A DNA stretch of 45,338 nucleotides from an uncultured Pseudomonadales bacterium (GTDB lineage: Bacteria; Pseudomonadota; Gammaproteobacteria; Pseudomonadales; Azotimanducaceae): assembly GCA_937921865.1 (NCBI GenBank), contig CAKZWF010000032.1, forward strand, positions 1-45,338, read 5' to 3'. Every line of letters begins with the position of its first letter. Position 1 is the first letter of the stretch. The notes below the pieces were generated by a model. It was given only the letters and a program-made list of their open reading frames with translations. It searched no databases and was not told the origin of the DNA. The position numbers and the translations under genes were made by a program. Shown in pieces: positions 1,664-24,226 of the stretch.

Positions 1664-4600
1664 TTACTCGTTCGCTGCCAGCAGTCGTCGAGCTTCATCC
1701 AGGTCTGGTGATACCTCGCCTCGACTGACAAATTCTTCCACAAGCCCTGCCAGCGAGGTTTGCGTACCTTCATTTGAATCGCCGCTTTTTCGTTCCAGTT
1801 TTACAAGCGCGATCAGCGCCTGCAGCTCGAGCAAAGTGGCGCCCATCTGCCTGGACAGATCAATTGCCTTCGAGAAACACTCTCGTGCATTACCTATCAG
1901 GCCCATGGAAACCTGCAGCTCACCTTGAATCCGGTGCAAGGCTGGTTCATACAGACGTTCATTGAAACGCTCTACCTGCTGAAATCCCTGCTGCAATGCC
2001 GCATTCGCCTCGTTGTGAAGACCTTTCGTTAGATAAGTCCTGGCAACACAACCCTGCAGAAAAGGTCCAAACAGTCTCGCTCCAGAAAGTTGATAGAGCG
2101 TCACGTTCTCATTGATGAGATCGATTCGGTCTTGAGAGGGCTCTTCAGCGCTGTTTGAGAACGTTGCATAGACTTTCCCCAGGCATAGCCAGAGTCCGAA
2201 GCCATGTTCGTCTGAGAGCCGGGCTGAAGCTCTACCATGTGATTGCCCTTCTTCCGTTAGGCCCTGAATGTGATTAATCGACGAACAAAAATTCTCAACG
2301 TAGGCCTGGTCGAAAGGTCTACCGAGCTTTTTCCCAAGTGCGACCGCCTCGTCAATATGCTTCAAAGCCTGTTTCAGCTCGCCTCGAACAGATGAAATCA
2401 ATCCCATCATAGCCAAGACCGCCAGCAGAGGATTCTGTTCGGTTGGGTAAGAGAAATTCTGGCCGCCTTTAGTCTGATAGAGCAGCGCGGCGTGCTCCAG
2501 CGCTTTCATCGCATCGTCATATTGACCCTGGTAGCCGAGAACATAGCCGAGTGCATTGTAGCCTTCAATCAGATAGTCGGGGCGATCCCGTGATTCGCCC
2601 AGCTCAATGCATTGGTGAGCAAGTTCCCCAGCTCGATCAAGCTCGCCGCGCACGATAAAAAATGTACCCAAGCGTCTCTTGACGGCATAAAGGGATTCTT
2701 CATCACCAATCAGTTCGCAGAGCTCGAGTGCACGAAGTTGTGCAGCTTCTACCTCGGGAGCCGCATACCCCTGGGAGGCAGAGAGACTGAATCCGTACGC
2801 CCCGAGAAGCTTCAGCTCAAGGTGATGACGCTCGATCGATTCTGGTATTTTTTCGAGAAGAGCGAGAGCCTTCGATAAGTGATCCACGGCATCAGCATGA
2901 GCTGCGCGGCCGGCTGCCCGCTCCCCTGCCTTGACCCAATAGTTTATGGCGCGCTGCGCTTCTCCGGCCTCGGAAAGATGTCGAGCGATGGCTTCCGGCT
3001 GTTTTTCAAGTATCTCGGGGAATTCAGTCTCGAGCGCATGGGCAACTCGTCGGTGAATTTTTGCGCGCTCGATCAGGAGGATCGATTCATACGCAGCATC
3101 CTGCAGCAAAGCATGTTTGAAACGATACGTCGGTTCAATCAGATCAGAAGTGCGTTGGACAATGTCGGCATCGATCAGGCGTTCGAGAATGATTCCCAGT
3201 TCTGCCGTCGGTGTCTGTGTGGTAGCGGTCAGTAGATCGAGCGTGAATTCCCGGCCGAGCACTGCGGCGACCTGAGCAACGTTTTTATTGCTGGAGTGAC
3301 GATCCAGACGTTCGTTCAATGATGTCTGTAGTGATTCAGGAACCACTGACCGATTCAACTTTCCACCAGAAGAATCGGATTCAACCACGGAGGAAGTCAA
3401 CTCTTCGATGTACAGTGGATTTCCTTCACTTCTGGCAAGAATGCCCTGCTTCACAGCATTCGGCAGCGTGGCGGGTGCAGAGATATCATCGATAATCTTC
3501 ATGCTCTCGCGGTCACCTAGCCGCACCAGATCGATGATTGTTGAGTGTGCCAGCTCCTGCCAAGGTGGAGTGAATTCAGGTCTGCAGGTCACCAGCAGCA
3601 ACACCGGTAGCTTATCGATCATCTCGACAATTTTTATCAACAATTCCAGCGATGTAGGGTCGATCCAGTGAACGTCCTCAAAAAGCACCAGTAATGGCTG
3701 CCTGGCAGCCAGCGCCTGGATCTGCAGCAGGAGCATATCCAGCGTCCGTTCTTTCTGGCGTTCTGCACTCTCTTCGATGGGTGCGTATCGCTCAGCGAAC
3801 AGGATAGAAGTCAATGCCGCGATGTATCGAACGGAACCGCCGAAATCGTCTGAACCGGTGCGCGCAAGTAGCGCTTCGAGCTTGTCCAGTTTTTCGTCAG
3901 CACTATCGCCGCGTGCAAATTCGGCTGATCGTTCAATCTGGCTGATGAAGGGATATAGCGCGGTATTGCTGAAATGTGGTCCGCATTGATAGCTGAGTGA
4001 AATGTATTGTTCGTTAGCAAGTACTGCGGTGACTGCCAGTGTCAGGCGCGACTTCCCAAGTCCCGGCTCGCCTCGCAAACACACAACCTGGCCGTTGCCG
4101 ACTTTCATCAGCTCCCAGGATTGAATAATCTTTTCAAGCTCTTGATCGCGACCAACGAGATTCGCCAGCTGATGATTGACACGCGATGCCTCAAAGCGGT
4201 TTATGCCTGTATGTTCGGCGACTGCATGAGATAGCGGAACGGGTTCACCGAAGCCTTTCAGATCGTGAGACCCGAGATCTTCGAATTTGAACTGCCCACC
4301 GACCAGATTTCGCGTGGTTGGACAGACAACTACGCATCCACCCTGTGCCACTTCCTGCAGACGGGCAGCCAGATTCGGGGTGGAGCCAACAGCAGGTTCT
4401 CGATCAAAAAAGTTATTTGCGGTGAGATCACCAACAACAACCATACCGGAGGCGATTCCTACTCGAATTTCATAGCCGGAATCACTGCTGGCCACTTCGT
4501 CAACCAACTCCAGACCGGCTCTTACGGCACGCTCGGCATCGTCCTCGCGCGCGCTCGGATAGCCAAAATAGGCCAATATTCCATCACCCAGATACTGGGC

Positions 4601-4930
4601 CACAAACCCATCATGTTCTTCAACAACCTTTCTGAACATGTCGTGGTAGCTGATTATGATCGAGCGCAACTCTTCAGGGTCGAGGGTCGTTGAAAGCGCA
4701 GTCGAGCCGATGAGATCACAGAAGAGAATCGTCGTGAAGCGTCGCTCCGCCGATATCGAACGTTGCTGCACCTCTGGAGGACCGCCGATGGGTCGTCCAC
4801 AGCCTCCACAGAACCTGGCTCCCGGTAAATTCTCAAATCCGCAGACTTCACAACCTGCTAAACCGGTTCCACAATTGGAGCAGTGGCGATAGTTCTCTGG
4901 ATTAATCGTATCGCAATTACGGCAGCGCAT
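1664..4930 (-). CDS. Zinc-ribbon / class III nucleotide cyclase / AAA ATPase / TPR signalling protein
   Basis: A 1088-residue cytoplasmic signalling protein. Residues 1-50 form a double zinc ribbon with eight cysteines (C3, C6, C17, C20, C27, C30, C41, C44). Residues 60-235 are a class III adenylate/guanylate cyclase domain with both metal-binding aspartates (D72 in F-C-D-L-I-G and D116 in Y-L-G-D-G) and the transition-state N186 and R190. An AAA/NACHT-like ATPase follows with Walker A GEPGLGKS at 287-294 and Walker B around D419. The remaining C-terminal part is helical TPR-like sequence. The purine-specifying Lys position holds Q112 and the usual Asp/Thr position holds S183, so ATP versus GTP preference is unclear. 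The architecture is a known family of cyclase-ATPase proteins thought to sense ligands through the TPR region. It is a single gene with its own start at the R-C-R-N-C ribbon; no operon partner is evident. Confidence 0.92.
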   Translation of the reverse strand: MRCRNCDTINPENYRHCSNCGTGLAGCEVCGFENLPGARFCGGCGRPIGGPPEVQQRSISAERRFTTILFCDLIGSTALSTTLDPEELRSIIISYHDMFRKVVEEHDGFVAQYLGDGILAYFGYPSAREDDAERAVRAGLELVDEVASSDSGYEIRVGIASGMVVVGDLTANNFFDREPAVGSTPNLAARLQEVAQGGCVVVCPTTRNLVGGQFKFEDLGSHDLKGFGEPVPLSHAVAEHTGINRFEASRVNHQLANLVGRDQELEKIIQSWELMKVGNGQVVCLRGEPGLGKSRLTLAVTAVLANEQYISLSYQCGPHFSNTALYPFISQIERSAEFARGDSADEKLDKLEALLARTGSDDFGGSVRYIAALTSILFAERYAPIEESAERQKERTLDMLLLQIQALAARQPLLVLFEDVHWIDPTSLELLIKIVEMIDKLPVLLLVTCRPEFTPPWQELAHSTIIDLVRLGDRESMKIIDDISAPATLPNAVKQGILARSEGNPLYIEELTSSVVESDSSGGKLNRSVVPESLQTSLNERLDRHSSNKNVAQVAAVLGREFTLDLLTATTQTPTAELGIILERLIDADIVQRTSDLIEPTYRFKHALLQDAAYESILLIERAKIHRRVAHALETEFPEILEKQPEAIARHLSEAGEAQRAINYWVKAGERAAGRAAHADAVDHLSKALALLEKIPESIERHHLELKLLGAYGFSLSASQGYAAPEVEAAQLRALELCELIGDEESLYAVKRRLGTFFIVRGELDRAGELAHQCIELGESRDRPDYLIEGYNALGYVLGYQGQYDDAMKALEHAALLYQTKGGQNFSYPTEQNPLLAVLAMMGLISSVRGELKQALKHIDEAVALGKKLGRPFDQAYVENFCSSINHIQGLTEEGQSHGRASARLSDEHGFGLWLCLGKVYATFSNSAEEPSQDRIDLINENVTLYQLSGARLFGPFLQGCVARTYLTKGLHNEANAALQQGFQQVERFNERLYEPALHRIQGELQVSMGLIGNARECFSKAIDLSRQMGATLLELQALIALVKLERKSGDSNEGTQTSLAGLVEEFVSRGEVSPDLDEARRLLAANE

Positions 4931-5573: not shown

Positions 5574-5651
5574 ATCAGGTACTTGCCGGCAAATTTGAAC
5601 GCGCCATACTAACGCACTATGGGAGACAATGACGACAATGAGGGGTATCTG

Positions 5652-6527
5652 ATGAAGAGCTACAACACAGCCGTGTATACAACTGATCGATGGCAGGGCT
5701 TCAAACACCGCGCTGGGGATATTTTCATCTGCACACCAGCGAAGTGCGGCACCACCTGGACCCAAACCATCGTCACCAACCTCATTTTTCCGAATGGGGA
5801 CTTTCCGGCACCGGTGATGGAGCTGTCGCCCTGGATCGAGATGAAAATGCGGCCGGCCGACGAGATGCACGCGGCGCTCGAAGCGCAGACGCATCGCCGG
5901 GTCATGAAGTCACACACTCCTGCAGATGGCATTCCGTGGTTCGATGACGCGCGTTACGTTTTTGTCTGCAGGGATGGCCGAGACGCCTTCATGTCCATGG
6001 TCAATCACATGGACCGGATGATTTTCACCGACGCTCTCAATGAGCAAGCGATCAAGGACGGCATTCCCCCAATGCCCAACTTCGAAGGCGACGTGCATGC
6101 TTTTTTCGAGCACTGGCTAGGCTCATCGGACGAGCAGTTTTTCAAGCTGGCAAGCAGCTACTGGGAAAGAAAAGATCAATCAAACCTGCTGCTGGTGCAC
6201 TTTAACGACCTGAAAAAGGACCTAGGTGGGCAGATGCGGCGTATTGCCGGTTTCCTCGACATCGAGATTCCCCAGGCAATCTGGCCGGATGTGATTTCAC
6301 GCTGCATGTTTGAAAACATGCGGGAAAACGAAGCCATGGTCGGCGACATGAGCTTCGGCTTCAAAGGCGGCACCAAAGGTTTTCTGTTCAAAGGCAGCAA
6401 TGGCCGCTGGCGCGATGTGCTGAGCGCTGAGGAACTCAAGCGCTATGACGAGCATCTTAACGCATCAATGCCCGCCGCTGCGGCACAGTGGGTGACCGAG
6501 GGTGGGCACCCGACTCGTAGTTCCTGA
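5652..6527 (+). CDS. Sulfotransferase domain protein (PAPS-dependent)
   Basis: A 291-residue cytosolic-type sulfotransferase that would move sulfate from PAPS to a hydroxyl of a small acceptor. The 5'-phosphosulfate loop is TPAKCGTTW at residues 28-36 with K31 present; it has Cys where most members have Ser. H88 in K-S-H-T is the expected catalytic base. The 3'-phosphate motif appears as CRDGRDAFMSMVNH. The C-terminal F-K-G-(x)n-G-R-W-R-D-V segment matches the family PAPS-binding end (usually RKGxxGDWK). ATG 5652 was chosen because AGGGG at 5641-5645 sits 6 bases upstream; an in-frame ATG at 5619 is possible. The gene converges on the phosphatase that ends the minus-strand aromatic operon, 15 bases away. 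The acceptor is unknown; proximity to a sulfatase suggests a sulfate-ester theme. Confidence 0.88.
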   Translation: MKSYNTAVYTTDRWQGFKHRAGDIFICTPAKCGTTWTQTIVTNLIFPNGDFPAPVMELSPWIEMKMRPADEMHAALEAQTHRRVMKSHTPADGIPWFDDARYVFVCRDGRDAFMSMVNHMDRMIFTDALNEQAIKDGIPPMPNFEGDVHAFFEHWLGSSDEQFFKLASSYWERKDQSNLLLVHFNDLKKDLGGQMRRIAGFLDIEIPQAIWPDVISRCMFENMRENEAMVGDMSFGFKGGTKGFLFKGSNGRWRDVLSAEELKRYDEHLNASMPAAAAQWVTEGGHPTRSS

Positions 6528-6542: not shown

Positions 6543-7133
6543 TTAGCCCTGCACCTCGCGCAGGTGTACGGCTTCGTTCAGGGTAATCACTGAGCGCTCT
6601 CCGGTGCTGGCGCACTGGTAGCGATTAATACTGGTGTAGTCCGGATTGAAAAACATCCTGGGCGAAAAGCCGATCACGTGCGCGGTCCAGACATTGATGA
6701 CCCCTCCATGGCAGGTCACCGCGACGCGCTTACCCGGGTGGCGCTCCACGATGCCTTCAAGCGTTGCGACAACCGTGTTGCTGAATGCCTCGAAATCCAC
6801 GCCAACGTCGCCTTTCATCAGTTTAAGCCAGCGGTCGTAATCAACCTGTTTGAGCTTTTCCACAGGGACATAGGCTTCAGAGTTGCGGTCAAATTCAACT
6901 ACGCCTTCGCGTAATTCAATACTCAAACCCTGGGCGCGGGATAGCGGCTCTGCAGTCTGATGCGCGCGCGCCATCGGAGAAGAATACAGATGATCAATGG
7001 ATTCGTGCTGCAGCCAGGTAGCCATCAGGTCGGCCTGGGAGTGACCGATGTCGGATAAAGGGGGATCAGCCGGTTGGCCGTCACGGTTTTCTATGTGCAT
7101 GGGCAGGCCATGCCGAATGAGTATGAGTTCCAT
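6543..7133 (-). CDS. Histidine phosphatase family protein (phosphoglycerate mutase-like)
   Basis: A 196-residue member of the histidine phosphatase superfamily. The catalytic R-H-G motif is at residues 7-9 with H8 as the phosphoryl acceptor, an S-P-M-A-R-A-H-Q-T-A segment supplies the phosphate-pocket arginine, and a second histidine lies in T-C-H-G-G near residue 140. Length is normal for the small phosphatase branch (SixA, CobC, GpmB-like). It is the last gene of the minus-strand operon headed by TetR, starting 7 bases after the SDR stop. That position links it to aromatic catabolism, where a phosphatase is not a usual step; it may remove a phosphate ester or do metabolite repair. The substrate cannot be determined from sequence. 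Confidence 0.85.
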   Translation of the reverse strand: MELILIRHGLPMHIENRDGQPADPPLSDIGHSQADLMATWLQHESIDHLYSSPMARAHQTAEPLSRAQGLSIELREGVVEFDRNSEAYVPVEKLKQVDYDRWLKLMKGDVGVDFEAFSNTVVATLEGIVERHPGKRVAVTCHGGVINVWTAHVIGFSPRMFFNPDYTSINRYQCASTGERSVITLNEAVHLREVQG

Positions 7134-7140
7134 GGTGACT

Positions 7141-7917
7141 CTATATCAGCCCTGGGTAAGAACCGCCATCCAGCTGTATGTTCTGACCCGACATAAACCC
7201 CGCCTGATGACTGCACAGAAACGCACAGGTATCCCCAAATTCAGCCGGATCGCCAAGCCGTTTCGCGCAGATCGTGTCTGCAATCTGGCGCATGGCTTCC
7301 TCCATCGTGATGCCTGAGGCCTGCATCATCCGCTGCGCCATGTAGCGCTGCCTGTCGGTGTTGAAGCGTTCGGGCAGCAGATTGTTGATGGTGACGTTGT
7401 CGGCGACGACTTCCTGAGAGAGTCCTTTACAGTAGGCCGTCAGCCCGGAACGCGCTGCCGTGGACAGACCCATAGGCGCGCGCGGCGATTTCACCATGGC
7501 TGAGGTGATGTTCACCACCCGCCCAAACTTACGTTGACACATACCGGGCACCAATCCCTGAATCAACGCAATAGCGCCGAGCATGTTGGACTCAAGCGCC
7601 TGGTACCAGTCGTCAGTTTGCCATTTCTGGTAGTTGCCAGGTGGTGGTCCGGCATTGTTGTTAACGAGTATGTCGATCTCACCGGCAGCTTCCAGCAGGC
7701 GCGAACGCTCTTCGTGCTGATTCAGATCCGCCAGGACTCCGTCGACCTGTGCACCCGTTGCGCGCAGTGAATCGACGGCTGCGTCGAGTCGGCCGCGGTC
7801 GTGGCCATTGATGAGGACAGCACAGCCCTCACGCGCCAGGGCTTGCGCACAGGCATAGCCCAATCCGCGCGTTGACGCGCACACCAGCGCGCGCCGGTTG
7901 CGGATGCCGAGGTCCAT
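7141..7917 (-). CDS. Atypical SDR-family protein without the catalytic Tyr-Lys pair
   Basis: A 258-residue short-chain dehydrogenase/reductase fold protein. The nucleotide loop reads CASTRGLG (residues 13-20) rather than TGxxxGxG, and the N-N-A-G segment is kept (NNNAGPPPG). The conserved Ser is present (N-I-T-S), but the active-site Y-x3-K is replaced by S-T-A-A-R, so classical hydride-transfer chemistry is doubtful. This pattern matches the known 'BKR-like, SDR-like' subgroup that lacks a perfect cofactor motif and tetrad. The chosen ATG overlaps the stop of the dioxygenase gene by one base (TGATG), so the two are translationally coupled; a longer ORF to 7965 lies inside the dioxygenase gene. 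It may act as a dehydrogenase with altered chemistry or as a binding protein in the ring-cleavage pathway (inference). Confidence 0.85.
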   Translation of the reverse strand: MDLGIRNRRALVCASTRGLGYACAQALAREGCAVLINGHDRGRLDAAVDSLRATGAQVDGVLADLNQHEERSRLLEAAGEIDILVNNNAGPPPGNYQKWQTDDWYQALESNMLGAIALIQGLVPGMCQRKFGRVVNITSAMVKSPRAPMGLSTAARSGLTAYCKGLSQEVVADNVTINNLLPERFNTDRQRYMAQRMMQASGITMEEAMRQIADTICAKRLGDPAEFGDTCAFLCSHQAGFMSGQNIQLDGGSYPGLI

Positions 7918-8861
7918 CAGTCGGTAACCGTACGACCAAAGTCTGACGGCATCTGTGGTCCCCATTGGCTGGCAGCGCCAACGTCCGGACCGTGGATCTG
8001 AAACTCGTGCTCAGCGTTCATAATGTCACCGTCAACAAAATGCTCGTGGATCATGCCCCAGGGATCACGCCAGTAGTCAAAGATCTGACTGCCCAGGGTG
8101 TGTCGACCAATTCCCCAGCTGTGTTTGTAGCCCTGCGCCTCGAGGTGTTCGTTGCCGACGTAGATGTCGTTGATATCGACAACTTCAAACGAGCAGTGAT
8201 TGAAACCAGGTTCGTCGAATGTCTGCGCCAGCAGCACCGAGTGATGGTCAGTAAACTCCTCGCCGCGATCGAACCGGCAGAAATAGGCAAAATCTTTATC
8301 ACCCACACCCACGCCATCACTACGCACGATGCCCAGGTGCCGATAGTACCAGTCCCAGCTTCGGGACAGGTTCGCAACGTTGATGCCGACATGACCGAGA
8401 CGTTTAACGCGTGCCGGCTGGCGCGGGCATCGGACGGTGTCTCCGTGTCGCTCCTGGCGACCCCCGAAGTTGACGGGATCGGTATTCTGAAGCAGCGGCG
8501 CGTGCGTCTGGGTACGGTGGATGACTTCAATCTGGAACCCGTCCGGGTCCGTCAGGATGACGCGTTTGCCGCCGCCCGGCTCATCAATCGCTGCTACGTC
8601 GGATGCATCTGGTGACGCGCTCAGCGCCTCAAGATCACTCTCACTATTTGCGTACAGCGCAAAGCCGAGGAACGCAGCCTCGCCCTTTTCAACCACGTGC
8701 ACGACATAGTCGGGACCTGCACCCCTCAGAAAGAGCGCGTGGTCGTTTTTTTCAACAGTCGTGAGACCAAAGTCATTCAGAAACGCCTCCATGCGGTCGA
8801 GGTCGGGAACGCGAAGGCGGGTATAAGCGACTTCTCTGGCTTTCATGATCGGTGCGTTCAT
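7917..8861 (-). CDS. Type I extradiol ring-cleavage dioxygenase (VOC family)
   Basis: A 314-residue two-domain vicinal-oxygen-chelate protein, the usual size of type I extradiol dioxygenases such as catechol 2,3-dioxygenase and 2,3-dihydroxybiphenyl dioxygenase. The C-terminal catalytic domain carries the metal facial triad H157 (L-G-H-V-G), H222 (F-N-H-C-S-F) and E273 (I-H-E-H-F). The N-terminal VOC domain (residues 8-116) lacks an obvious metal triad, as expected. It would open a catechol-type ring next to the hydroxyls using Fe(II) and O2. A strong AGGAG lies 7 bases before the ATG. The hydroxylase stop is 3 bases upstream and the SDR ATG overlaps its stop, so it sits in the middle of a coupled operon. 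The true catechol substrate is unknown. Confidence 0.92.
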   Translation of the reverse strand: MNAPIMKAREVAYTRLRVPDLDRMEAFLNDFGLTTVEKNDHALFLRGAGPDYVVHVVEKGEAAFLGFALYANSESDLEALSASPDASDVAAIDEPGGGKRVILTDPDGFQIEVIHRTQTHAPLLQNTDPVNFGGRQERHGDTVRCPRQPARVKRLGHVGINVANLSRSWDWYYRHLGIVRSDGVGVGDKDFAYFCRFDRGEEFTDHHSVLLAQTFDEPGFNHCSFEVVDINDIYVGNEHLEAQGYKHSWGIGRHTLGSQIFDYWRDPWGMIHEHFVDGDIMNAEHEFQIHGPDVGAASQWGPQMPSDFGRTVTD

Positions 8862-8864
8862 TGG

Positions 8865-10424
8865 TCAACTCCTGTTAGCCGGTATAAGGGACATCTGCTG
8901 CGCAGCGTCGTGCAGCAGATCATTTACGCTGATCTGTTCGGTTGTGAAGCCGTACACGTACCGGTCGGGACGCACGACAACGGCGTCGTGCTCATCGAGC
9001 AGCCTGTCCCACTGTCCGCGTACAACTTCCAGTTCATCGATGCCAACCAGTCGGCCGCCCGTCGCTGCAAGTAACTCAGTGGATATGTCATCTATAGCTG
9101 GCACCTGGCCGCGATGGACAACAGCAAACCCGTTACCCAGAAGATCATCCAGACGTACCCGCTCACCGGCACTGGTGAGCACATCCGGCTGGCTGAACAG
9201 GAAACCGCAGGGGCGCTCCAGGCCAACCTGCTGGTGACAGATCACACCATCGCGCAAAGGTGGCACCGTGCGACCCTGGCCATAACCTGAGGACTGATCC
9301 ATTGGCGGCGGAGGCGGATTGCCATCACGTTCAGCCTGTTCTGTCGCTGCGAAAAACTCCATCAGCTTGCCGATGTTCACAGCCCAGTCCACCAGGTCAC
9401 GCGCGTGTGCATCACGCTCAGCCTGATAGCTGTCAAGCAACGCCTCGGTGGCTTTGCCTTGTTTTATCAGCTTGAATTTCCACGCCAGATTGAGGACATC
9501 GCGCATGCCTGCGTTCATACCCTGACCCAGGAAGGGCGGTGTCTGATGCGCGGCATCACCGGCAAGCAGCACTCTGCCCGCTCGCCAGCTTCCCGCCACC
9601 GCGGCGTGAAAGGTATAGAGAGCTGATCGCCGCAGGCTGTAGGTGCCTGGTGGAGTCCACTGCTCGATCAGCTCGCGGACGTTCGCTTCGGCGCAGAAAG
9701 CTTCAGGGTCTTCACCATCGTTCAGGCGGAATTCCCAGCGTCGGTAGGGATCCCGAGTCGCCACATAGGTGGCGAGTCGATCCGGGTCACAGACCTGCAT
9801 GGTTCGAGGGCCCAGGGTGTGTCCGGATTTCAACTCAATGTCGACCACCAGCCAATCCTGGTCGTAGCCCAGACTCTGCCAGCTGATCCCAAGCGATCTG
9901 CGCACAAGGCTCGAAGCGCCATCACAGCCAAGCAGATACTGTGCGCTGAAGCTCTCCCGCTGATTGGTGTCCAGATTGGTCGTCTGCAGCTCAACACCCT
10001 CTTCGACTTCGCTGAACGCGCTGACTTCATAACCGGTACGCATATCAACATCAGCTTCTGCTGCGGCTCGGTTGCGAAGCCAGCCATCAATGTCAGGCTG
10101 GTCAAAAAACGCGTTGGTGTCCCAGCCATTGACGCCACCGGCGGACGGCTCGAAGCCAAAGATGACCTCCCGCCGGGAATTAACAAAGCCGACCCACTCA
10201 CCTTCACGCAATCGTTGCATCATCGCGTTCAGCTCATCGCCCAACCCGAGCGCCTGAAAACCACGGATGATTTCACCATCCATGTTGACCGCCCGAGGCA
10301 GCAGGTAGACTTCTTTGTCGCGGTCAAACGCGATGACTTTCAGTCCGGCCCTGGCCAGGAGTACCGCCGCGGCGCTGCCTACCGGCCCGAGACCCAGAAT
10401 CGCTATATCGTAGTCAGGCGTCAT
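8865..10424 (-). CDS. FAD-dependent aromatic hydroxylase (MhpA/PheA-like class A flavoprotein monooxygenase)
   Basis: A 519-residue group A flavoprotein monooxygenase, expected to hydroxylate a phenolic ring using NAD(P)H and O2. The FAD-binding GxGxxG is GLGPVG at residues 11-16, the DG motif is C-D-G at 167-169 and the GD motif is A-G-D-A-A-H from 288. A C-terminal thioredoxin-like domain of about 120 residues (from about 390) is as in MhpA and phenol hydroxylases. It lies directly upstream of the extradiol dioxygenase (3-base gap), the expected order for a hydroxylase that makes the catechol which the dioxygenase then cleaves. It is preceded by the FAH-family gene (14-base gap). The specific phenol is not predictable from sequence. 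Confidence 0.92.
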   Translation of the reverse strand: MTPDYDIAILGLGPVGSAAAVLLARAGLKVIAFDRDKEVYLLPRAVNMDGEIIRGFQALGLGDELNAMMQRLREGEWVGFVNSRREVIFGFEPSAGGVNGWDTNAFFDQPDIDGWLRNRAAAEADVDMRTGYEVSAFSEVEEGVELQTTNLDTNQRESFSAQYLLGCDGASSLVRRSLGISWQSLGYDQDWLVVDIELKSGHTLGPRTMQVCDPDRLATYVATRDPYRRWEFRLNDGEDPEAFCAEANVRELIEQWTPPGTYSLRRSALYTFHAAVAGSWRAGRVLLAGDAAHQTPPFLGQGMNAGMRDVLNLAWKFKLIKQGKATEALLDSYQAERDAHARDLVDWAVNIGKLMEFFAATEQAERDGNPPPPPMDQSSGYGQGRTVPPLRDGVICHQQVGLERPCGFLFSQPDVLTSAGERVRLDDLLGNGFAVVHRGQVPAIDDISTELLAATGGRLVGIDELEVVRGQWDRLLDEHDAVVVRPDRYVYGFTTEQISVNDLLHDAAQQMSLIPANRS

Positions 10425-10438
10425 GAGCTGGCCCCGGC

Positions 10439-11311
10439 CTATTCGATGATGCAGCGAGCGTCTTCGACGACAACCCGGTTTTCGATGAATCCGAGCTTCT
10501 CAACTTCCACCTTGACGACGTCGTCTGCCTTCAGAAAATGCGGTGGCTGCATGGCAACGCCAACACCGGAAGGTGTCCCCATGTACAGCACGTCGCCCAC
10601 GTCCAGAGTGAACGCCTGAGTCAGGTGGGCGATAGCATCGAAGCAATCGAAGATCAGATGTCTGGTATTGGAATGCTGACGTTCCTCACCGTTCACCCAG
10701 CAGCGGATCTCCAGGTTGTGGGGGTCGCCAACTTCATCCGGGGTTACCAGCCAGGGGCCGAGCGGACCGTGAGTGTCGAAGGATTTGCCGATCTGCATGG
10801 TCTGAACTCGAAGCTGCCAGTCCCTGACGCTGACATCGTTACCACAGCAATAGCCGGCGATGACTTCGTGGGCCTTTTCTCTCGGCACATGTTTGCAGCG
10901 TTTGCCGATTACCACGCAGAGTTCCGCCTCGTAATCGAGCCGACTGGACGCCATAGGCAGATTAATATCCGCGTAGGGGCCGTTGATGCAGTTGTGCTGT
11001 TTGTTGAACCACATCTGGTGTTTGGGTTTTTCCATGCCACTTTCTGCGACGTGATCAGCGTAGTTCAGACCAATCGCAAGCACCTTGCCAGGATTCGGCA
11101 GTGGCGCGTGCAGAGTGACCGCATCGGCGCTGATCAATGCGGATGATCCAGCGAGTGCAGCGGCGCGTTGCATCCCGCTGTCACCCGCCTGCAGCAGTTC
11201 CATCATGGTTGCCGGCAGTCCAGCCGCAGCAAGATCGATGATTCCTCCTTCAACGAGGAGACCGGTGCGTGGCGTATCAGAATCGGCGTTGGAAAACGTT
11301 ACAAGTTTCAT
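10439..11311 (-). CDS. Fumarylacetoacetate hydrolase family protein (ring-fission product hydrolase/isomerase)
   Basis: A 290-residue FAH-family enzyme, the usual length for bacterial HpcE/acylpyruvase-like members. The metal-binding acidic residues are E128 and E130 (L-D-Y-E-A-E-L) and D159 (G-N-D-V-S). The core begins around G-K-V-L-A-I-G-L-N-Y-A-D-H at residues 75-87, with an N-terminal lid domain before it. Members hydrolyse or isomerise 2-hydroxymuconate or acylpyruvate-type ring-fission products with Mg2+ or Mn2+. The ATG overlaps the TetR stop (ATGA, 11308-11311), so TetR, hydrolase, hydroxylase, dioxygenase, SDR and phosphatase form one transcription unit. In the inferred pathway it acts after extradiol cleavage. 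Confidence 0.9.
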   Translation of the reverse strand: MKLVTFSNADSDTPRTGLLVEGGIIDLAAAGLPATMMELLQAGDSGMQRAAALAGSSALISADAVTLHAPLPNPGKVLAIGLNYADHVAESGMEKPKHQMWFNKQHNCINGPYADINLPMASSRLDYEAELCVVIGKRCKHVPREKAHEVIAGYCCGNDVSVRDWQLRVQTMQIGKSFDTHGPLGPWLVTPDEVGDPHNLEIRCWVNGEERQHSNTRHLIFDCFDAIAHLTQAFTLDVGDVLYMGTPSGVGVAMQPPHFLKADDVVKVEVEKLGFIENRVVVEDARCIIE

Positions 11312-11961
11312 GATGTCTCTTCCGCGGGTAAGGGTTGGTGGGCAAGTTCGTGGGCATCTTCAGCCGGCACGCCGAACACGCGCAGCATCAGTTCTGTGGC
11401 TGTGTCGACCTTCTCGTCAACATCTGCCTCGTCCAAACACTGCTTCACCACATTGATGAAGCCGCCAAAGCCGAAGTTAGTGGTCAGTTTGATATCTGAG
11501 ATTTCAAACCGGCCAGAGCGAATGCCCTTCTCGATATCGCGCAAACTGTAGGATCTGAATGCCATGGCCATCTCCTCCAGCGGAGCTGCCGAATGTTTGA
11601 GATACCAGCGCCAGATCGGATTGGTCTTCACTTCTCGAGCTGTGAGTCGAGCTGACAGCGCAATGATTGCTGCAGGGTCGCTCAGGTCTGCGGTGAGCCT
11701 CTGGAAGCGCTCGTCCATGGCGCTGGCGTACTCGGCGACTATCGGCGTGAGCACGTCGTGTTTTGATTTGAAGTGCAGATAAAACGAGCCGTGGCCAACA
11801 TCGGCAGCGCTGGTAAGGTCGGCAATGGTGATGTCATCAATGGGACGTTCGCTCAGCAGATCGGTGGCCGCAGCAATGATTCGGGCCTTTGCCTGCTGCT
11901 GTTTGCGCTCAACGCGGGAGAGTTTCTGCGGTTCCGATACCTGCTGCGCGGCCCTGGGCAT
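11308..11961 (-). CDS. TetR/AcrR-family regulator heading the aromatic operon
   Basis: A 217-residue TetR-type repressor. The N-terminal helix-turn-helix spans about residues 25-70, with the signature I-A-D-L-T-S-A-A-D-V-G-H-G-S-F-Y-L-H-F. The C-terminal two thirds is the ligand-binding and dimerisation region. ATG 11961 is preferred; a TTG two codons upstream (11967) is an alternative. No strong Shine-Dalgarno is visible, which fits low expression. It is the first gene of the minus-strand operon and is divergent from the sulfatase. Two copies of a TGACT-N2-AGTCA palindrome lie in the gap, at 22 bases upstream of this gene and 30 bases upstream of the sulfatase. It probably represses both units and is relieved by a pathway intermediate (inference). 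Confidence 0.9.
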   Translation of the reverse strand: MPRAAQQVSEPQKLSRVERKQQQAKARIIAAATDLLSERPIDDITIADLTSAADVGHGSFYLHFKSKHDVLTPIVAEYASAMDERFQRLTADLSDPAAIIALSARLTAREVKTNPIWRWYLKHSAAPLEEMAMAFRSYSLRDIEKGIRSGRFEISDIKLTTNFGFGGFINVVKQCLDEADVDEKVDTATELMLRVFGVPAEDAHELAHQPLPAEETS

Positions 11962-11982
11962 AGCCAAACACTCGAAAATAAA

Positions 11983-11994
11983 TGACTGAAGTCA
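11983..11994. promoter_or_regulatory. Operator copy 1 (TGACTGAAGTCA)
   Basis: A 12-bp inverted repeat, arms TGACT/AGTCA with a GA centre, 22 bases before the TetR ATG on the minus strand. It matches the arms of the second copy at 12015. I infer a TetR-family operator for autoregulation and operon control. Confidence 0.7.
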
Positions 11995-12014
11995 AAAATG
12001 ATTGCATATATTTA

Positions 12015-12026
12015 TGACTATAGTCA
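12015..12026. promoter_or_regulatory. Operator copy 2 (TGACTATAGTCA)
   Basis: A perfect 12-bp palindrome with the same TGACT/AGTCA arms as copy 1 and a TA centre. It starts 32 bases from copy 1, about three helical turns, so dimers on both sites would face the same side. It lies 30 bases before the sulfatase ATG at 12057. Confidence 0.7.
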
Positions 12027-12056
12027 ATAATGATTTCGTCCAAACCGGAGCGGCAG

Positions 12057-13667
12057 ATGAAACCTTTCAACATTCTGATGATCACCACTGATCAGGAGCA
12101 GTCATATGTCGATCTGCCGTCTGCTCTTGCGCTCCCCGGCCACAATCGCCTGCGCGAGCAATCGATCGCTTTTCGAAAATTCCAGGTGAACTCGACACCG
12201 TGCGGCCCGTCCCGGTCCGTCATCTACTCCGGTCAGCACACCCAGCGGACGGGATTGTTTGTGAACCCCAACGTGCCGCCGCATCCTGAATTGCCGCGCA
12301 ACATGCCCACCCTCGGCTCGATGTTTGCAGAGCTCGGCTACTACGCGGCGTACAAGGGCAAGTGGCATCTATCGCACCTGAACCACGGCATCGAGTTTGA
12401 TCAGCAACGTTTTCCAGAGACCACCCGGGCGCTGGAACCCTGGGGTTTCCATGAATACACCCACGATGGCGATCATCACGGCCTGGCCTGGGACGGCTAT
12501 ATGCACGATGGTGCCATTGCCGCCGATGCAGCCAACTGGCTGCTCGGCGCAAACGGCCGCAAGCCTGATGATCAGCCCTGGTTGCTGGCAGTCAACTTCA
12601 TTAATCCGCACGACGTAATGTTTTTCGATGCCACAGGCAGCATGGCCGAGGAGCGTCTCGACCCGGTCAGGGTCGCCCCGCTGCTGCCCGCCCCTCACGC
12701 GCCGATCTATCGCGACCAGCTCGATATACCACTGCCAGTCAGCTTTACCGACAATCTCGACCGCAAACCTTCCGCCCATCGGCAGGACCAGCGTCTGGCT
12801 GATCTGATGTATGGCCACCTGCCGCTCGATAACGAAGCGGCCTGGCGCAATCATCGCAATTTCTACTTCAACTGCATTCGCGACGTTGACCAGCACATCT
12901 GCCAGGTTCTGGACGCGCTGGAGCAGTCGGGCGAAGCAGACCGGACCATCGTCGTGTTCACCTCCGACCATGGAGAGATGGCTGGTGCGCATGGCATGCG
13001 GCAGAAAGGTGCGTCTATTTACAAAGAGAACGTGGGTGTCTCCTGCTTTGTGAACCACCCGGATATTCAGGGCGGAAAAGAAACTGACAGCCTGGCGACC
13101 TCGGTAGATCTGATCCCGACGCTGTTGGCTATTTCTGGCGCCGATGTGAGCGACATCTACGAACGCTGGCCGGATCTGAAAGGAGTGTCATTCAGTCCAG
13201 CTCTGACAGGACAAACCAGCGAACGCGACCAGCGCGGCATGCTGCTGAACTACACCGCCACCCTCGCCTGGGATGTTGATTTTGTCGAAACCCTGTTTCG
13301 TGGTCAGGTTCGCGGCGAGTTCACAGACCTCGAAAAACAGCAGCTGGCCGCCGGTCAGTCTCTGGAGCAGTTTGCCTGCTATCGGGGTATCTGTGATGGT
13401 CGCTACAAGTTTGCCCGCTACTTCAAGCCAGCAGAACATCACGTTCCCGAAGACTGGGACACGCTCCTGCGCCACAACGAACTGGAGCTGTATGACACCG
13501 AATCAGATCCGCACGAGTTGAATAACCTCGCGTTTGAGCCTGAATCGCATCGAGACCTGATCCTGACTCTGAATGATCGATTAAATGCGCTGATAGCTGA
13601 GGAAATCGGCGCCGACGATGGCAGCTGGTACTCGTCGCGCAGGAGCTACCGGCTGGGTGGAGCGTAG
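12057..13667 (+). CDS. Sulfatase (type I, formylglycine-dependent; aryl/choline-sulfatase-like)
   Basis: A 536-residue type I sulfatase with no signal peptide, so likely cytoplasmic. The maturation motif C-G-P-S-R at residues 49-53 (C-x-P-S-R) supplies the cysteine that becomes formylglycine. Metal-binding elements are T-T-D-Q near residue 12 and F-T-S-D-H-G-E in the C-terminal half; G-K-W-H and the YDxxxDPxExxN motif near the C-terminus are also present. ATG 12057 is preferred over ATG 12030 because GGAG at 12047-12050 is correctly spaced and because the second operator then lies upstream of the coding region. The gene diverges from TetR across the paired operators. It is expected to hydrolyse a sulfate ester, probably releasing a phenol for the divergent ring-cleavage operon (inference). 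Confidence 0.9.
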   Translation: MKPFNILMITTDQEQSYVDLPSALALPGHNRLREQSIAFRKFQVNSTPCGPSRSVIYSGQHTQRTGLFVNPNVPPHPELPRNMPTLGSMFAELGYYAAYKGKWHLSHLNHGIEFDQQRFPETTRALEPWGFHEYTHDGDHHGLAWDGYMHDGAIAADAANWLLGANGRKPDDQPWLLAVNFINPHDVMFFDATGSMAEERLDPVRVAPLLPAPHAPIYRDQLDIPLPVSFTDNLDRKPSAHRQDQRLADLMYGHLPLDNEAAWRNHRNFYFNCIRDVDQHICQVLDALEQSGEADRTIVVFTSDHGEMAGAHGMRQKGASIYKENVGVSCFVNHPDIQGGKETDSLATSVDLIPTLLAISGADVSDIYERWPDLKGVSFSPALTGQTSERDQRGMLLNYTATLAWDVDFVETLFRGQVRGEFTDLEKQQLAAGQSLEQFACYRGICDGRYKFARYFKPAEHHVPEDWDTLLRHNELELYDTESDPHELNNLAFEPESHRDLILTLNDRLNALIAEEIGADDGSWYSSRRSYRLGGA

Positions 13668-23521: not shown

Positions 23522-24098
23522 CGTCATCGAGCGGAGCTTGCCTTACAACGTCCATTCTCGGCTTATGAAGGCAGCGGGCAATATATATTCGTGTGCTATG
23601 CGCGTGCTGACGCCGCCCTTGTATATGCTGAAATTACGCGGTTAAAGGCCGAAAAATTTGACCTCTGGTATGACGAGGGTATTGCACCTGGCGCTGAGTG
23701 GTCTGAGACGCTTGCGATGCGCATCCGAGATTGCGCCCACTTTCTTTACTTTGTCACGCCGCACTCGGTTGCCTCCGAGCACTGCCGGCGAGAGGTCAAT
23801 TTCATACTGAGTCTAGCGCGATCCGCAGCACTGGTGGCGATCCATCTGGAACCCACAGAACTCACGGATGGTCTGGCGATTCTATGTATGGGGCAATACG
23901 GCCATCGGGCAGTACGCGCAGGCTGTGAACTGGATGGCGATCGGATGGGAGCACGGAGACCACTACGAATTCTGGGCGATGCGCAGTCATCCAGGAACAG
24001 CCTTCGACGAGATGTGGGCCACACCCGAATACCAGAACCTCATTGGACGTACCATAGGCCATCCACCGACCTGTCCAGGCTACACCGCTCTCAACTGA
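23522..24098 (+). pseudogene. TIR-domain protein remnant (start lost, interior deleted)
   Basis: From about 23549 one frame encodes a clear TIR domain: Y-I-F-V-C-Y-A-R-A-D, then F-D-L-W-Y-D-E-G-I-A-P-G-A-E-W, F-L-Y-F-V-T-P-H-S-V and S-E-H-C-R-R-E-V-N-F, which holds the S-x-x-C-x-x-E active-site pattern of TIR NADases. It ends at H-L-E-P-T-E-L near 23870. There is no in-frame ATG, GTG or TTG before the domain after the stop at 23519. Immediately after, the reading switches frame into a tail (23868-24098) with R-S-H-P-G-T-A-F-D-E-M-W-A-T-P-E-Y, which resembles the C-terminal end of TPR proteins that carry such TIR domains. I infer a TIR-TPR gene that lost its start and its middle. Confidence 0.6.
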
Positions 24099-24120
24099 TC
24101 CCAGCCCTCGTGCTCAATTC

Positions 24121-24226
24121 TCGCCGCCGAAGGTCTGGCGCAACGTTTCGGGTCGCGAATGCCGAGAAGCTCCCATTCTCCGACGACGATTTCGATGTAG
24201 CTATCGCGTGGCACATCGATCACTGA
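24121..24226 (+). pseudogene. Methyltransferase fragment
   Basis: A short in-frame stretch encodes A-T-F-R-V-A-N-A-E-K-L-P-F-S-D-D-D-F-D-V-A-I-A-W, the motif II-III region of a UbiE-type class I methyltransferase. It is cut off on both sides: no motif I precedes it and a stop follows soon after. It is a gene remnant in the degraded region. Confidence 0.5.

Follow-up and report, generated by a model that had tools for sequence, protein, structure and literature searches.

The closest known pathway to the locus described herein is, by analogy of three enzyme families, that of hcdABC in Pseudomonas mandelii 7HK4, which serves the catabolism of 7-hydroxycoumarin and 3-(2,4-dihydroxyphenyl)propionate (PMC6222606). 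In the excerpted text of that report, hydroxylation to a trihydroxyphenyl acid and meta-cleavage are demonstrated, and addition of an FAH-family protein removed the cleavage product, with the resulting products left unnamed in the same text. The locus examined here lies in a 45,338-nucleotide stretch of contig CAKZWF010000032.1 (hereafter the window) from an uncultured bacterium of the family Azotimanducaceae (Pseudomonadales). Six tightly packed minus-strand genes, in the order TetR, FAH, flavin hydroxylase, type I extradiol dioxygenase, short-chain dehydrogenase (SDR), and histidine phosphatase, run from the TetR ATG at 11961 to the phosphatase stop at 6543, and an S1-type sulfatase gene (12057..13667, plus strand) diverges from them. 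An earlier note on this DNA had described one compact operon divergent from an intact C-x-P-S-R sulfatase, and all of the genes, the junctions, and the motif were found again as given there.

Like hcdABC, this operon combines members of three families, namely class A flavin hydroxylases, type I extradiol dioxygenases, and FAA hydrolases; the likeness is drawn between families and not with the HcdA-C sequences. In contrast, hcdABC as excerpted has no sulfatase, TetR operator pair, or SDR (PMC6222606). The ipp cluster of Rhodococcus sp. D-6, which acts on 2-isopropylphenol, likewise combines a flavin monooxygenase, a VOC extradiol dioxygenase (H-H-E), and a neighboring FAH-domain protein, but the portions of that report consulted give it a two-component group D monooxygenase, a 211-residue dioxygenase, and no sulfatase (PMC12442392). 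Literature searches, whose scope took in few subscription papers, turned up no account of an extradiol cluster that includes a sulfatase. We read the locus as a likely meta-cleavage pathway with a recurrent sulfatase module. Specifically, we propose, with a probability of roughly 0.6, that one TetR acting on two palindromes holds both the sulfatase and the operon, and that together they serve a single pathway in which a sulfated phenol is desulfated, hydroxylated, and opened at the ring.

Sulfatase genes beside ring-cleavage genes

The earlier note had named beforehand, as a test, that the sulfatase should be conserved beside the dioxygenase, hydroxylase, and FAH genes, and in relatives of the window this held. 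Linkage was defined as a sulfatase within 6 kb, with loci typed by profiles. Detection used our own profile at E <= 1e-8, and expected numbers were taken from the sulfatase density of each genome (PF00884, E <= 1e-15). The dioxygenase occurs in 41 of the 206 genomes of the window's family, at 46 places including the window, and 18 of the other 45 places have a linked sulfatase, compared with 1.44 expected. All 18 belong to the 33 places that have an FAH or hydroxylase gene in the vicinity; the 12 that have neither contribute none. L238, L239, and L240 are near-copies, such that distinct linked dioxygenase loci number 16 of 43.

A similar pattern is seen from the hydroxylase side. At E <= 1e-60 this enzyme is found in 44 of the 206 genomes, and one region per genome could be taken from 40 of the 43 others. 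A sulfatase lies within 6 kb in six of these 40 (1.16 expected), and all six are among the 10 loci that also carry the dioxygenase (0/30 without it; Fisher 5e-5). In 13 of the 18 linked dioxygenase loci, the sulfatase is a co-directional neighbor of a catabolic gene, and in one (L236) it is divergent. The dioxygenase tree requires at least 10 changes of the sulfatase label, indicating that sulfatases have been gained or lost often.

Several features of the samples bear on these counts. Many contigs end within 6 kb, and the contig stops before the sulfatase gene does in L220, L228, and L239 (for one of its two). Some loci that were later counted (L037, L138, L139, L140, L144, L075, and others) had contributed to the typing profiles; PF00884 confirms the sulfatases of L138, L139, L140, and L144, and for several others the PF00884 matches lie at consistent genome positions. 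Outside the family, 13 dioxygenase loci, all with FAH or hydroxylase genes, carry no sulfatase, but with only 0.17 expected this null by itself says little. Plasmid relatives of the dioxygenase and FAH proteins bear generic names among the matches listed.

These data can be set against the possibility that the sulfatase scavenges sulfur or cleaves a non-aromatic ester, such as a sugar, choline, or alkyl sulfate, and adjoins the ring-cleavage operon by chance. Sulfatases are common, with 21 matches in the window genome (G000), and the best structural and sequence neighbors of this one include choline-sulfatase and glycan sulfatases; in addition, some of its close homologs in the family, described below, are located elsewhere. 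However, sulfatases are more than 10 times commoner near the dioxygenase than genome density predicts, are absent where the dioxygenase stands alone, and in the window share a gap that holds a conserved operator pair. We consider chance adjacency unlikely, and by the synteny counts and the operator pair the arrangement is beyond chance.

Among genome samples of the class (369), relatives (57), and order (390), the close clade of the window sulfatase (>50% identity over the full length) was represented by the window's own gene only. The search of all 206 family genomes found it at 67-77% identity in 8 other genomes, giving ten places at 67-100% identity with the window included. Five of the ten adjoin ring-cleavage genes (the window, L222, L238, L239, and L240). 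L272 lies on a contig too short to judge. In a scan of contigs for the sulfatase, one of the 80 loci listed (L037) belongs to this clade. Eight of those 80 carry more than two of 17 window proteins, including the hydroxylase in six, FAH in four, and the dioxygenase only in L037. The L037 sulfatase is the closest linked one among the matches listed (76%), in the one-strand order TetR-dioxygenase-FAH-glutathione S-transferase (GST)-VOC-sulfatase. Loci L038, L040, and L069, whose sulfatases are 44-49% identical, have no FAH, hydroxylase, or dioxygenase gene in their 21 kb, showing that such linkage does not extend to the sulfatase superfamily as a whole.

A candidate operator pair in the shared gap

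The TetR gene (11308..11961, minus strand; PF00440 and PF21306) is read from the ATG at 11961; a listed TTG at 11967 lies two codons further upstream. Its product carries the recognition helix VGHGSFYLHF. The 95-bp gap between the TetR and sulfatase ATGs contains two TGACTNNAGTCA palindromes 32 bp apart, which are likely TetR operators: TGACTGAAGTCA at 11983..11994 and TGACTATAGTCA at 12015..12026, the latter 31 bp upstream of the sulfatase ATG. A single minus-strand promoter-like site overlaps the second palindrome.

The pair recurs in related clusters. Across 91 fetched catabolic loci, ten score 16-20 of 20 (L144, L147, L151, L152, L162, L164, L169, L172, L173, and L175) and the other 81 score 15 or less, as do all 60 control loci over 10 kb. 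The pair is at the TetR junction in 10/10 loci. In an alignment of 20 chosen loci, 10 with the pair and 10 without, TetRs accompanying the pair are 39-43% identical to that of the window and have in common the helix (V/I)GHG(S/T)FYLHF, while those from clusters without it differ at the recognition helix. In nine relatives the pair sits between TetR and the hydroxylase gene, and in L144 between TetR-dioxygenase and FAH-hydroxylase-sulfatase; in the window, the place opposite TetR is taken by the sulfatase. Genome-wide, G000 has six exact pattern sites, not above the reversed control, two of which are the window pair. No operator pair was found with the TetR fragment of L174 (48% identity; 5-kb contig).

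Judged from sequence, then, the conserved candidate operator of the shared gap accompanies one type of regulator, as would be expected of a single TetR regulon. Given that 10 related clusters, with TetRs of matching recognition helix, have the pair at the TetR junction, joint TetR control of the sulfatase and the operon is likely. The earlier note had placed the sulfatase under the operon's TetR; the shared site and its matching helix sustain that proposal, with control itself being probable. A different palindrome-like block, of the ACTTG-N8-CAAGT type, occurs with a different TetR in the TetR-dioxygenase gaps of L138, L139, L142, L145, L146, and L176.

The sulfatase and the operon enzymes

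The sulfatase (536 amino acids) belongs to the S1, or formylglycine, family on the basis of PF00884, its C-x-P-S-R motif (here CGPSR), and a predicted alkaline-phosphatase-like fold. Its start at the ATG at 12057 is preferred over one at 12030, as 18 of 20 close homologs in alignment A1 begin no more than four residues away. C49-G-P-S-R53, D12, K102, H104, D304, H305, and K317 are invariant across the 34 rows of A1; these we take to be catalytic residues. Leader peptides were judged by eye, and none is visible here, in agreement with the cytoplasmic placement of the earlier note. The protein scores below the choline-sulfatase model TIGR03417 (124.2 bits, cut-off 433.45) and also below the arylsulfatase PRK13759 and PehA models (87.2 and 76.4 bits; cut-offs 481 and 900). 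It further differs from the choline-sulfatase BetC (6fny, 7pth) in adjoining ring-cleavage genes, not bet genes. Neither the sulfatase, the dioxygenase, nor the FAH protein passes a curated substrate-specific model.

More than one kind of sulfatase is associated with these clusters. A tree of 40 sulfatases, 11 of them linked, predates the retrieval of most dioxygenase loci; its supported branches require the linked label to change at least four times. The linked sulfatases fall into these groups: the window and L037, which lack a leader; L138, L139, L146, L176, and L140 (mostly with leaders); L144, which has no leader, a long branch, and a weak placement; and SAR11. Three kinds are linked within the family, and a fourth stands beside FAH and hydroxylase genes in SAR11. 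In the SAR11 loci L072, L074, and L075, a sulfatase with a twin-arginine-like leader adjoins FAH (46-47%) and hydroxylase (27-28%) genes, and no dioxygenase of the window's kind was found in them. These three loci are from single cells and also contain GST; L075 adds a CMD-family and a VOC protein.

Two kinds of sulfatase occur within one cluster in both L238 and L239. The window genome itself has a second cluster (G000:C40; L223 830-9315), in which a leader-bearing sulfatase, an FAH-like protein, an SDR, and a hydroxylase face TetR-dioxygenase-FAH-GST. A separate FAH-domain protein of ~345 residues, with a hydrophobic N-terminus resembling a membrane anchor, is encoded at L223 2279-3316, L238 8934-9968, and L037 2353-3399; in L223 and L238 its gene immediately precedes that of the leader-bearing sulfatase.

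Within the operon, the FAH-family hydrolase or decarboxylase (10439..11311; PF01557, 232 bits), which shares an ATGA overlap with TetR, was aligned to solved FAH relatives and has the HxxE and ExE motifs. After a gap of 14 bp comes the class A flavin hydroxylase (8865..10424; PF01494), a member by sequence of the MhpA-like subfamily (NF004829, 478.2 bits, above the curated cut-off of 390). A 3-bp gap separates it from the dioxygenase (7917..8861; PF00903), which is of type I on account of its two-domain VOC fold and 2-His-1-Glu site. H157, H222, and E273 are invariant across the 32 rows of alignment A2 and presumably form the active site. The enzyme is below the curated HpaD, catechol 2,3-dioxygenase, and BphC cut-offs (63.5, 54.8, and 50.2 bits versus 321, 320, and 366). 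The type I extradiol nature of the dioxygenase led us to discard an FAH-plus-GST route through gentisate or homogentisate. DntD/DntG of dinitrotoluene degradation are reportedly a precedent.

The SDR gene (7141..7917; PF13561; 61% identity to the SDR of the L037 cluster) meets the dioxygenase gene in a TGATG junction and is followed after 7 bp by the last gene of the run, encoding the histidine phosphatase (6543..7133; PF00300, His_Phos_1). The SDR raises the possibility that the sulfate is carried by an aliphatic alcohol of a larger molecule (a sterol, terpenoid, or meroterpenoid), that this enzyme oxidizes the freed alcohol, and that an aromatic or aromatized ring is opened later. An SDR is present in several linked clusters as well as in this operon, genes for a cytochrome P450, PhyH, and an alcohol dehydrogenase lie elsewhere in the window, and steryl-sulfatase is among the weaker sequence matches. 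Nevertheless, we regard this scenario as quite improbable.

Some neighboring genes were also noted. A histidine phosphatase with 67% identity to that of the window (L149 12631-13434) lies ~3 kb from a related hydroxylase/FAH locus. A sulfotransferase gene (PF00685, 130 bits; 5619-6527, plus strand) ends beside the phosphatase gene, in convergent orientation to the operon; around L037 and the 40 hydroxylase loci, the comparison listed no relative of this gene. The window also encodes a TIR-domain protein (PF13676, 50.6 bits; 23591-24226, plus strand) and a nucleotide cyclase domain fused to an AAA ATPase and TPR repeats (1664-4930, minus strand).

A proposed route for sulfated aromatics

The encoded proteins might act together as follows. 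The sulfate ester or the freed phenol would relieve TetR at its two candidate sites, and the ester, once taken up, would be hydrolyzed by the cytoplasmic sulfatase, as suggested by its motif and predicted fold. The MhpA-type hydroxylase could then yield a catechol or trihydroxybenzene, which the dioxygenase, given its fold and metal ligands, would cut beside the diol. Finally, the FAH enzyme may split the cleavage product, by comparison with the role proposed for HcdC after HcdA and HcdB, and the SDR might act on a side chain or aldehyde. Since the same types of genes stand next to several kinds of sulfatase in related bacteria, desulfation likely precedes aromatic degradation.

Certain findings weigh against this proposal. 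A sulfatase within 6 kb is lacking at 15 of the 33 places where the dioxygenase is accompanied by FAH or hydroxylase genes, with many contigs cut. In four of the 18 linked loci (L138, L139, L146, and L176), the sulfatase is convergent and therefore not in one transcript with the catabolic genes. The loci are related and the p-values, which treat them as independent, overstate the association. Four of the ten close-clade places (L277-L280) are not beside ring-cleavage genes, with L277 having only ~1 kb on one side. The predicted sulfatase fold is equally near choline-sulfatase and a glycosaminoglycan sulfatase, and aryl esters are not favored. No sulfate-ester importer lies within the cluster. 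Last, G000, at 89.7% completeness, has no recognizable formylglycine-generating enzyme or anaerobic maturase. It has five PF03781 matches, and the four proteins read resemble SUMF/PEGA, EgtB, or kinase fusions by eye; for the anaerobic maturase TIGR03942 it has no match, and matches in 2 of 21 family genomes are both below cut-off. Either the roughly 10% of the genome that is missing holds the maturation gene, or these sulfatases mature in an unusual way.

Detoxification genes are often under TetR repressors, and the cluster might remove sulfated or free phenols without using them for carbon. GST genes accompany several related clusters, and an importer and a central pathway are absent from this one. 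However, a ring-opening step with an FAH enzyme after it is the layout of carbon catabolism, as in the excerpted account of hcdABC (PMC6222606), and we judge a purely protective role to be very improbable. We thus return to catabolism of a sulfated phenol as the preferred interpretation.

Sulfate esters are known for some phenols of algae and seagrasses. Zosteric acid is said to be a sulfate ester of a seagrass phenol. The marine alga Dasycladus contains sulfated coumarins and phenolic acids, including 7-hydroxycoumarin-3,6-disulfate, according to the excerpted report (PMC6278426), and our conjecture is that the window organism meets such compounds. In the parts of the literature consulted, marine sulfatases are usually discussed with polysaccharides, and the SAR202 papers describe the expansions of sulfatases and of oxygenases separately (PMC6946804, PMC9416657).

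More broadly, these clusters may represent an undescribed catabolism of sulfoconjugated aromatics. Within a single family, several S1 sulfatase kinds would have joined hydroxylase/extradiol/FAH clusters time and again, and in the window one TetR would govern both. The sulfatase-hydroxylase-FAH arrangement of SAR11 would be a parallel case, and sulfated phenols of algae and seagrasses would serve as direct growth substrates. We place this wider proposal at about even odds. A link to a ring-cleavage operon through both position and operator offers a direct, testable assignment of a sulfatase to aromatics, and gene neighborhood could then separate aromatic from glycan sulfatases in other genomes.

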